A stretch of 64,000 nucleotides of DNA from the NCBI GenBank assembly GCA_937870685.1, contig CALMZX010000104.1, positions 1 to 64,000 on the forward strand. The letters run 5' to 3'. The stretch's first letter is position 1; every line of letters starts with the position of its first letter. This document shows positions 42,358 to 46,351 of this stretch, in pieces. This DNA comes from an uncultured Alphaproteobacteria bacterium (GTDB taxonomy: Bacteria; Pseudomonadota; Alphaproteobacteria; Rhizobiales; Aestuariivirgaceae). The position numbers and the translations under genes are program-made. The notes below the pieces were generated by a model, which saw only the letters and a list, made by a program, of their open reading frames with translations, ran no database searches and was not told the origin of the DNA.

Positions 42358-42768
42358 TCACCCCTTGAAATCGCGCAGGATGTTTTTCAGGCCGGGCTCG
42401 GCCACGCGCAGCACCGCATCATGGGTGGAAAACCAGCTGCGCTCGCGTTCCTTCATCTCGGGCCAGGCCTTGCGCTTGGTCTCGACTTCCAGGGCATAGA
42501 CAGTGACGGTGACCGGCAGCACTTCCTTCTTGCCACGCTTCTCATAGAAGAATGTGCCCAGTGGCTCGCGCCGCATGTGGCCCTCGACACCCGCCTCTTC
42601 AAAGGCCTCGCGCCGCGCCGCGTTGTAGTCGGCGAGCCCTTCCATGGGCCAGCCCTTCGGGATCACCCAGCGCCGCGTCTCGCGCGAGGTCACCAGCAGC
42701 ACCTCCACTGTGCCTTTCCGCCTGCGCCAGCACAGCGCCGCCACCTGCTGAAGGGTACGCTCCGCCAT
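42358..42768 (-). CDS. NUDIX hydrolase
   Basis: 136 aa from ATG 42768, whose first base is the last base of the pit stop codon (TGATG). The Nudix box is WVIPKGWPMEGLADYNAARREAFEEAGVEG (about 34-63). The IPKGWPM form is typical of the diphosphoinositol/diadenosine polyphosphate branch in alphaproteobacteria. Coupling to a phosphate transporter is suggestive of polyphosphate or signalling-nucleotide turnover, but that is inference. Confidence 0.88.
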   Translation of the reverse strand: MAERTLQQVAALCWRRRKGTVEVLLVTSRETRRWVIPKGWPMEGLADYNAARREAFEEAGVEGHMRREPLGTFFYEKRGKKEVLPVTVTVYALEVETKRKAWPEMKERERSWFSTHDAVLRVAEPGLKNILRDFKG

Positions 42769-43778
42769 CACAGCAGATGGGTTGCCAGCCAGTAGGACAC
42801 GGCCGCAAGAATCGCCGACGCCGGGATTGTGATGACCCATGCCCAGACAATGCTGGAAGCGAGGCCCCAGCGCACCGAATTGGCGCGGCGCGCCGTTCCG
42901 GCCCCCACGATGGCGCCCGTGATGGTATGGGTCGTGGAAACGGGAATGCCGAGATAGGTCGCCGCAAACAGCGTCATGGCTCCGGCCGTGTTGGAACAGG
43001 CCCCCTGCATGGGCGACAGCTTGGTGATCTTTGATCCCATGGTGCGCACGATGCGCCAGCCGCCCATCATGGTGCCCATTCCCATGACCACATAACACGA
43101 GAAGATGGCCCAGTCCGGCACATGGAATTCCTTGTACACCCCGTTCGAATAAAGAAGCACCGCAATGATGCCTGCCGTTTTCTGGGCGTCATTGCTGCCG
43201 TGGCCGAGCGAATAGAGCGCCGAGGCCACAAGTTGCAGCTTGCGCATGACGCCTTCCGCCCAGGAAGGGCTGGCGCGCATGAACAGCCAGCTCATCAGGA
43301 TCATCAGGATGATCGCCAGCACAAAACCCGTGAAGGGTGACAGCACGATGGCATAGAGCGTCTTGGAGAGGCCGCCCCAGACGATGCCGCCAAAGCCTGC
43401 CTTGGTGACACCCGCCCCGACGATGCCGCCGACAAGGGCGTGCGACGAGGACGACGGTATGCCACCCCACCAGGTGATGAGATTCCAGACGATGGCTCCA
43501 GCCAGTGCGCCGAAGACCACCGCATTGTCGATCAGGTCGGGCGAGATGATGCCCTTGCCGATGGTGTTGGCGACATGGGCCTCGAAAACAAAATAGGCCG
43601 CGAAATTGAAGAACCCGGCCCACAGCACGGCATGCACGGGCTTGAGAACGCGGGTGGACACCACCGTTGCGATGGCATTGGCGGAGTCGTGCATGCCATT
43701 GATGAAGTCAAAGAACAGCGCCACGAAGATCAGGAAGAACAGCGTCGCGTTGAATGCGCCAAGGTCCATGGCGGCCAT
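42768..43778 (-). CDS. pit: Low-affinity inorganic phosphate transporter, PiT family
   Basis: 336 aa, ten or so transmembrane helices. The duplicated PiT signature is visible as FFDFINGMHDSANAIATVVSTRVL near the N-terminus and MQGACSNTAGAMTLFAATYLGIPVSTTHTITGAIVGAG near 250-290. It carries phosphate with protons or metal-phosphate complexes. It lies 6 bp after the DUF47 gene, the orfA-pit arrangement known from Sinorhizobium meliloti. Confidence 0.95.
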   Translation of the reverse strand: MAAMDLGAFNATLFFLIFVALFFDFINGMHDSANAIATVVSTRVLKPVHAVLWAGFFNFAAYFVFEAHVANTIGKGIISPDLIDNAVVFGALAGAIVWNLITWWGGIPSSSSHALVGGIVGAGVTKAGFGGIVWGGLSKTLYAIVLSPFTGFVLAIILMILMSWLFMRASPSWAEGVMRKLQLVASALYSLGHGSNDAQKTAGIIAVLLYSNGVYKEFHVPDWAIFSCYVVMGMGTMMGGWRIVRTMGSKITKLSPMQGACSNTAGAMTLFAATYLGIPVSTTHTITGAIVGAGTARRANSVRWGLASSIVWAWVITIPASAILAAVSYWLATHLL

Positions 43779-43784
43779 CTCCCG

Positions 43785-44429
43785 TCAGGCGTGTTCGATG
43801 ACGATATCGCTCATCACGTGAGCCACATCCTCGAAGCGGTCACAGACCTTTTCGAGATGTTCATAGAGTTCCGCGCCGATCACGAAGGCAAGCGCATCCT
43901 TCTTGGCACGGCCCTTGTAGAGGGCCCGCAGGCCCTCGTCGTTCAGTTGGTCCGACTGTTCCTCGATCTTGGTGATCTCGCCTGTCAGCGTGTGCAGCTT
44001 GGAGGAATTTTGGCCGATGTTGCGCAGCAGCGGCAGGGCCTCCGAGGTGAGTTTCGCCAGCATGATCACGCGGTCCGCCATGGCCCTCATGTTGGGCTCG
44101 AACTCTTTCACGTCATAGAGCATGACCACCTTGCCGGTCTTGTTCATCTGGTCGATGGCATCATCCAGCGAGGCCGAGAGGCCCTTGATGTCGCTGCGGT
44201 CGAAGGGCGTGATGAAGGCACGGCGGATCGCCTGCATCACCTCATAGGAGATGTGGTCTGCCTCTTCTTCCTGGCGCGAGAGCGTGGCGCAATTGTCGGC
44301 AACCGCCTTGCCGCCATCGAGAATGGCGCGCAGCGACTGGGCTGCTTCCTGCGCCTTTGCGGCCTGCGCTTCGAAGAGGTCGAAGAACTTCTCCTCACGC
44401 GGCATCAGGGACTTGATGAAATGGAACAT
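43785..44429 (-). CDS. DUF47 (PhoU-like) protein, Pit accessory
   Basis: 214-aa helical cytoplasmic protein of the DUF47/YkaA family. MFHFIKSLMPREEKFFDLFEAQAAKAQEAAQSL...EEEADHISYEVMQAIRRAFITPFDRSDI is the family signature, with acidic metal-binding helices like PhoU. In Sinorhizobium the equivalent orfA is co-transcribed with pit and repressed by PhoB. The start has GGAG about 9 nt upstream. Three Pho boxes lie only 15 bp upstream of the ATG. Confidence 0.92.
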   Translation of the reverse strand: MFHFIKSLMPREEKFFDLFEAQAAKAQEAAQSLRAILDGGKAVADNCATLSRQEEEADHISYEVMQAIRRAFITPFDRSDIKGLSASLDDAIDQMNKTGKVVMLYDVKEFEPNMRAMADRVIMLAKLTSEALPLLRNIGQNSSKLHTLTGEITKIEEQSDQLNDEGLRALYKGRAKKDALAFVIGAELYEHLEKVCDRFEDVAHVMSDIVIEHA

Positions 44430-44444
44430 CGCCGGGCTCCGGTC

Positions 44445-44473
44445 ATGACATTTGGATGACAGTCATATGACAG
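44445..44473 (-). promoter_or_regulatory. Triple Pho box (PhoB operator) of the DUF47-pit-NUDIX operon
   Basis: On the minus strand: CTGTCAT-N4-CTGTCAT-N4-ATGTCAT, three direct heptamers at exact 11-bp intervals. The first two match the PhoB half-site consensus fully, the third has one change. A TTGCGG...CATATGA element suggests a promoter whose -10 lies inside the boxes, so bound PhoB would block rather than activate. Confidence 0.88.
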
Positions 44474-44510: not shown

Positions 44511-45164
44511 TCACCGTTTTCGGAAGGTGAGATAGGTCGGCGTGCGGCCTTCCCGCAGGGCTTTCGCTTCGTAGCGGGTACGCGTCCAGTCCGGGAACGG
44601 CAGGGCCGGATCGCCTTCCTCGGCGAAACCGCCATGCGCAGCCACGTGATCCCGCGTCCACGCCACATAGTCGGGAATGTCGCTGGCAAACAGGAAAAAA
44701 CCGTCACCCGCCAGCAATCTGTGAAAGTGGGCGAGGTTGGCCGGGCTGACAAAGCGGCGCTTCTTCTGCCGCTCCTTCGGCCACGGATCGGGATAGAGCA
44801 GGTAGAGGCGCTCCAGACATCCGTCCGGCAAGACCTCCAGCAAGGCGCGGGCATCCCCGTAGTGGACACGCACATTGCCGATGGTCTGCTCGTCCAGCGC
44901 CGCCAGCAGCTTGGCCACGCCATTGAGGAAGGCTTCCGCGCCAATGAGGGAAAGGTCACCATGCAGCGCCGCCTGGTGCGCCAGATGTTCACCACCGCCA
45001 AAGCCGATTTCCAGCCAGCGCCGCGAGCCCGTTGCCGCCAGCGGATCGGCGAGATCAACCGCCACCTGCGGTAGCAGCACATCCATCAGTTCCGAATGAC
45101 GGCGGCGCAAGGGCTTGCCCTTGCGCCGTCCGTAGAACTGGAATTTCGGCTGTGGCGAGGTCAC
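44511..45164 (-). CDS. trmB: tRNA (guanine-N7-)-methyltransferase TrmB
   Basis: Methylates G46 of tRNA. 217 aa from GTG 45164, which overlaps the metK stop (GTGA); the ORF-track start 15 codons earlier lies within met[25 protein letters not shown] opens the family, SAM motif [18 protein letters not shown] near 50-67, then [17 protein letters not shown] with the tRNA-binding basic run. Translationally coupled to metK, which makes its cofactor. Confidence 0.95.
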
Positions 45165-46351
45165 TTCACCGCCGCTTTGAGCGCCTTGACCAGATCGGTG
45201 CGCTCCCACGAGAAGCCGCCATCCTTCTCTGCCTTGCGCCCGAAGTGGCCGTAGGCCGCCGTGCGCGCATAAATCGGGCGGTTGAGATCGAGGTGCGTGC
45301 GGATGCCGCGGGGCGACAGGTCCATCACCTTGCGGATCGCCTTTTCGAGTTTTTCTTCCTTCACCTTGCCGGTGCCGTGGGTATCCACATAGACCGAGAG
45401 TGGCTGCGACACGCCGATGGCATAGGACAGCTGGATCGTGCAGCGCGAGGCGAGTTTCGCCGCCACGATGTTCTTGGCGAGATAGCGCGCCGCATAGGCG
45501 GCTGAGCGGTCCACCTTGGTCGGGTCCTTGCCCGAGAAGGCACCGCCGCCATGGGGTGCGGCACCGCCGTAGGTGTCGACGATGATCTTGCGGCCCGTGA
45601 GACCGCAGTCACCATCGGGACCGCCGATGTAGAACTTGCCGGTGGGGTTGACGTGCCACACCGTGTCCTTGCTGATCCAGCCCTTGGGCAGCGCCTTCTT
45701 CACATATGGCTTCACCAGCGCGAGCACGTCCTTCGACGTCATCGACTCGTCAAGATGCTGGTGCGACACCACGATCTGTGTGGCGCCAACGGGTTTGCCG
45801 TTCTTGTACTGCACCGAGACCTGGCTCTTGGAGTCAGGGCCGAGGCGCTTTTCACCCTTGTGGCGGGCTTCCGCGAGAAGCTGCAGGATGCGTTGCGAGT
45901 AGTAGAGCGGTGCGGGCAGCAGGTCGGGCGTTTCATCACAGGCATAGCCGAACATGATGCCCTGGTCGCCCGCTCCTTCGTCCTTGTGAGCCGCCGCATC
46001 GACGCCGACAGCGATGTCGGCAGATTGGCCGTGCAGCAGGATTTCGACCTTGGCGGTGTTCCAGTGGAAGCCATCCTGCTCGTAGCCGATATCCTTGATC
46101 GCCTGCCGCGCTGCGGCCTCGATCTTGTCATTCGTCACCGAGGAGGGCCCGCGGTATTCGCCCGCGATCACCACGCGGTTGGTGGTGGCCAGCGTTTCGC
46201 AGGCGACGCGCACTGACCACGGGTCCATGCCCTGCGCCAGCGCCTCGCGGAAGAACAGGTCGACCACTTCGTCGGAGATGCGGTCGCAGACCTTGTCCGG
46301 ATGGCCTTCGGAGACGGCCTCACTGGTGAATACGAAGTTCTTGCGCGCCAT
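45161..46351 (-). CDS. metK: S-adenosylmethionine synthetase
   Basis: Makes SAM from methionine and ATP. 396 aa from ATG 46351 ([31 protein letters not shown]); the ORF track adds 22 residues. [17 protein letters not shown] (ATP-binding) and [23 protein letters not shown] (phosphate-binding loop) are intact. A dyad operator and a candidate promoter lie upstream. The XRE regulator gene before it seems to have its own hairpin terminator. Confidence 0.97.

Follow-up and report, generated by a model that had tools for sequence, protein, structure and literature searches.

Start-adjacent Pho boxes and predicted PhoB repression of a DUF47-pit-NUDIX operon in an Aestuariivirgaceae bacterium

We predict, from sequence and by analogy with Sinorhizobium meliloti, that PhoB very probably represses a DUF47-pit-NUDIX operon during phosphate starvation in the uncultured Aestuariivirgaceae bacterium whose DNA was analyzed here (the whole stretch of 64,000 nucleotides is referred to as the window). 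Three PhoB half-sites would form an operator covering the promoter of the operon or the region transcribed first. When phosphate runs short, PhoB~P would bind these tandem repeats cooperatively, and the bound protein would exclude RNA polymerase or block its escape. Low-affinity import through Pit would then be shut down, together with the Pit accessory protein and the NUDIX hydrolase that would be co-transcribed with pit, while PhoB turns on pstSCAB.

The box array, its operon and the cognate regulator

The array occupies positions 44473 to 44445 of the minus strand and consists of CTGTCAT (44467-44473), the spacer ATGA, a second CTGTCAT (44456-44462), the spacer CCAA, and ATGTCAT (44445-44451), in exact 11-bp steps. 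The earlier note had described CTGTCAT repeats every 11 bp; the spacing and two of the copies are exact, and the third copy matches at six of seven positions. Its placement of the boxes 15 bp before a start codon, with a ribosome binding site in between, was borne out: the last half-site ends at 44445, and 15 nt (GACCGGAGCCCGGCG) separate it from the ATG of DUF47 at 44429 and include a Shine-Dalgarno-like GGAG (minus strand, 44440-44437). A Pho box is defined by two or more CTGTCAT-like 7-mers repeated directly every 11 bp; the array is one by sequence, and PhoB binding is predicted. The 29-mer MTGTCAT-N4-MTGTCAT-N4-MTGTCAT matches the window once, with 0 mismatches, and 100 dinucleotide shuffles of its sequence gave no hit. 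Across the whole genome this array is the only match with 0 mismatches to the triple pattern, ten others each having 3 mismatches, and the exact pair CTGTCAT-N4-CTGTCAT occurs nowhere else in the 3.29-Mb assembly.

Gene order on the minus strand is metK, trmB, the boxes, DUF47, pit, NUDIX, and then a TauE-type permease and rimP. DUF47 encodes a PhoU-like Pit accessory protein of the orfA type (43785-44429, 214 aa; PF01865, E 2e-37) and is followed on the same strand, after a 6-nt gap, by pit, a low-affinity phosphate transporter of the PHO4 family (42768-43778, 336 aa; PF01384, E 2e-93). The pit stop codon and the ATG of the NUDIX gene (42358-42768, 136 aa; PF00293, E 9e-12) share one base (TGATG), and on this layout the reading of the three genes as an operon holds. 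The translational coupling of NUDIX stated in the earlier note is a possibility suggested by this stop-start overlap. Upstream, trmB (44511-45209, start codon approximate; assigned from PF02390 and from the conserved metK-trmB-boxes-DUF47 synteny) shares the strand of DUF47, and 37 nt separate its end from the first box. A terminator-like stem after trmB (44508-44494) was discounted as within chance numbers.

The host genome encodes a cognate PhoB for these boxes. One phoB scores above the curated TIGR02154 cut-off (327.7 bits versus 296.2); it sits at C146 in a phoR-pstSCAB-phoU-phoB cluster, and its product matches structures of the E. coli PhoB DNA-binding domain. The genome's second-best Pho box array (G000:C26:6021-6060, minus strand) points against a short conserved gene, presumably DUF2794, and lies just before or over its start. 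This array is partly kept at five other loci (L277, L278, L281, L289 and L290), and the short gene is possibly a second target of PhoB repression.

Position, orientation and register of Pho boxes

A DUF47 relative was present in 95 of 398 genomes sampled from the order. We surveyed 167 non-redundant DUF47 upstream regions from -100 to +20 using a soft box score that was set by hand from the published consensus and was untrained. A box scoring at least 13 was found in 47 of the 167, compared to 0.05 expected by base shuffling. When the upstream regions were read backwards as a control, 9 boxes were found compared to 54 in the real sequences at a threshold of 12.5, and 5 compared to 44 at 13; the enrichment is therefore real, but the shuffles overstate it. 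About two thirds of the DUF47-pit operons in the order have no clear box by this score, and scoring of relatives found no clear box in the Methylobacterium loci, in genomes of f23/g66 or in several genomes of f34. Boxes lie close to the gene they precede: 43 of the 46 scoring at least 13 within 200 nt are 52 nt or less from the start codon, and none is farther than 88 nt.

Conservation is tightest among loci that share the metK-trmB-DUF47 synteny. Boxes are kept in place in the window and in L036, L038, L039, L044, L061, L065, L130 and L137, and likewise in L037, which is on an incomplete contig. Within this clade protein identity falls to 53-60% and the flanks have diverged, while the 11-bp-phased half-sites are retained; in L061 the boxes are 52 nt upstream of the start. 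Many PhoB sites in E. coli, mostly intragenic ones, are transcriptionally inert according to one study (PMC10294691), and the array could in principle bind PhoB to no regulatory effect or consist of chance repeats. We regard this as very improbable, given that the array is unique genome-wide and its position is conserved in the clade and across the order.

Box orientation varies among relatives. Among DUF47 boxes scoring at least 13 between -100 and +20, 17 are forward and 30 are reverse, although these counts are not independent because many of the reverse cases belong to one family (f35). Reverse boxes are also present outside that family, including in the genus of the window (L138, and L054 from Aestuariivirga litoralis), and the boxes of the window and its clade are forward. 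In A. litoralis and a relative (L055), the inverted Pho box overlaps the DUF47 start codon, compared to the forward arrangement in the window's subclade of the genus. The same-genus set appears to contain A. litoralis, so the bacterium studied here probably falls in Aestuariivirga or close to it. DUF47-pit itself is patchy among the same-genus genomes G001-G036 and absent altogether from many, suggesting gain and loss of low-affinity uptake.

Boxes upstream of pstS served as a positive control. In 22 pstS upstream regions from 21 genomes, including the window's own and many shared with the DUF47 set, the best box is always forward (22/22) and at least 47 nt from the start. A -10-like NTA occurs 9 or 31 nt after the box in all 22, compared to 0-5 of 22 in shifted registers. 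The E. coli phoA promoter has this 9-nt interval as well. The pstS promoters look very regular: L116 (13527-13640) and L244-L264 appear to have four 11-bp-phased half-sites with a -10 (CTA...) 9 nt past the fourth.

None of the 16 forward DUF47 boxes has this activation register (NTA 9 or 9+11n nt after the box), and neither does any of the 28 reverse boxes tested in their own direction, towards a divergent gene. By the geometry of pstS, the DUF47-pit boxes therefore do not activate the operon, nor do they activate a gene divergent from it. In the window, the hexamers where a -10 would be expected, 10 nt after a box pair, are TGACCG after the first pair of half-sites and CGGCGA after the second, and a -10 after the first pair would put the transcription start approximately 3 nt before the ATG, leaving a leader without a Shine-Dalgarno sequence. 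The register test led us to reject the window array as a PhoB-activated promoter of the pstS class. Activation of the operon by PhoB from these boxes, on the pattern of pstS, might be expected from PhoB being mostly an activator and from the boxes of the window and its clade pointing forward, but this is highly unlikely in view of the missing -10, the register (0/16 compared to 22/22), the variable orientation in relatives, and the repression seen in S. meliloti (PMC3131613, PMC8829014). Boxes that adjoin the start codon in either orientation and without a register fit steric blocking rather than activation.

Reverse boxes were also considered as operators of divergent genes in general, and this was rejected: at L224-L226, L233 and L240 the gene upstream of DUF47 runs in the same direction, and the register is absent (0/28). 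At one locus (L231, in G058), a reverse Pho box lies in the gap that separates DUF47-pit from a divergently transcribed ugpB-like gene. Here a role as operator of the divergent gene is possible, and the site could serve both.

Promoter candidates and the mode of repression

The earlier note's claim that the boxes are positioned for repression stands as far as the Pho boxes, the cognate PhoB and the exclusion of canonical activation by geometry (0/44 compared to 22/22) are concerned; the promoter that it presumed is only a candidate. A consensus sigma-70 scan of the window found no good promoter. The best -10 candidate in the window's clade, tentatively, is CATATG inside the box array (44464-44469, minus strand), whose position is kept in relatives: its distance to the ATG is 29-36 nt in the window, L036, L038, L130, L065 and L137, and 49 nt in L061. 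In five other loci (L156, L159, L172, L188 and L145), a strong CTTTAC-N16-18-CTATnn promoter is immediately upstream of the box or overlaps it, and the box therefore covers the predicted start site. A universal -10 within reverse boxes (TATGAC) was rejected as unsupported for f35, where there is no -35 at the right spacing.

PhoB at the boxes could instead be a roadblock to polymerases that read through from metK-trmB or start at a promoter within trmB, rather than a blocker of a dedicated promoter. Consistent with this, 37 nt lie between the end of the same-strand trmB and the first box, no strong promoter was found in the trmB-DUF47 gap, and in L146 and L151 a same-strand NUDIX gene ends inside the box. 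However, relatives in f20, f50 and f42 have a good promoter directly at the box, and roadblocks are usually leakier than promoter occlusion. We consider a roadblock the less likely arrangement, with perhaps a minor share of the probability. Either promoter occlusion or a roadblock represses the operon.

The NUDIX partner and comparison with known systems

Repression by PhoB would also reach the NUDIX gene. The earlier note presented this gene as a new member of the regulated unit, which is too strong, as its adjacency is widespread: a NUDIX gene of the window's subfamily lies within 3.5 kb of DUF47 in 26 of 78 DUF47-bearing genomes of the order. Eighteen of these neighbors are downstream on the same strand, 6 are divergent and 2 are upstream on the same strand. 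In the window's synteny clade, the NUDIX ATG is at or overlaps the pit stop wherever both ends could be read. In L146 (G389) and L151 (G246), the order is reversed relative to the window: the gene of this NUDIX subfamily precedes DUF47, and its end falls directly in the Pho box. That the same partners occur in such varied layouts points to a functional link rather than to simple inheritance of an operon. Co-repression of NUDIX with pit is likely in the window but cannot be general, because NUDIX precedes the box in L146 and L151 and is divergent in others.

AlphaFold2 modeled the NUDIX protein with a confident Nudix fold (pLDDT 95.7), and the alignment shows its core as REAFEEAGV, which fits REUXEEXGU. 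In sequence searches of the PDB it best matches the diphosphoinositol polyphosphate phosphohydrolases of human and yeast (E 1e-9), and its top Foldseek matches are likewise DIPP/Ddp1 (approximately 26-32% identity, TM approximately 0.7-0.76), with Ap4A hydrolases and MutT1 nearly equal by fold score. The protein looks like a DIPP-type hydrolase, and its putative substrates would be those of that class, PP-InsPs, Ap5A/Ap6A or polyphosphate. It resembles DIPP1 and Ddp1 in these matches and in the retained core, and it differs in belonging to a bacterial KGWP subfamily in which another residue, here Leu, takes the place of the first Glu in the canonical Nudix box. Our literature search found nothing joining a NUDIX hydrolase with pit and PhoB. 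The survey brings to light a conserved, unstudied NUDIX hydrolase linked to low-affinity phosphate uptake.

We speculate, with somewhat less than even confidence, that throughout the order PhoB shuts off pit operons by way of an operator that is conserved in position and free in orientation, that has been repeatedly gained or inverted, even within one genus, and that is told from activating boxes by the missing -10 register. In the same proposal, the DIPP-like NUDIX joins DUF47 and Pit as the third component of the uptake unit, linked to them in function; its substrates may be polyphosphate or dinucleoside polyphosphates that the cell makes in phosphate plenty. The pstS promoters of the same genomes share with DUF47-pit the half-site, the 11-bp phasing and the regulator. 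They differ in that pstS boxes all point forward, keep a distance of 47 nt or more from the start and stand in fixed register with a -10, whereas DUF47-pit boxes are start-adjacent, in either orientation and without register. Register of the -10, distance to the start and orientation together would provide a sequence rule separating PhoB-repressed from PhoB-activated targets in alphaproteobacteria, and with it repressed members of the Pho regulon would become predictable.

The closest known system is orfA-pit of S. meliloti (SMc02862-SMc02861), compared here through the literature. One report has orfA-pit repressed on phosphate starvation, with a PHO box that, in contrast to most PhoB targets, directly precedes the putative translation start (PMC3131613, citing Bardin et al. 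1998). Another ranks pit1 with the genes most strongly repressed under phosphate stress (PMC8829014). The agreement with S. meliloti claimed in the earlier note is thus confirmed by the literature, and because this repression is published, our core claim is already known in kind. What is new here is the order-wide sequence rule and the recurrent NUDIX partner. The arrangement known from Sinorhizobium recurs in many relatives, with the boxes in either orientation. The window shares with S. meliloti the order of DUF47 and pit, adjacent on the same strand, and a start-adjacent Pho box, here 15 nt before the DUF47 start; in S. meliloti the low-phosphate repression is reciprocal to pst. The window differs in its three 11-bp-phased half-sites, in having metK-trmB upstream, and in the NUDIX gene that overlaps pit stop to start.
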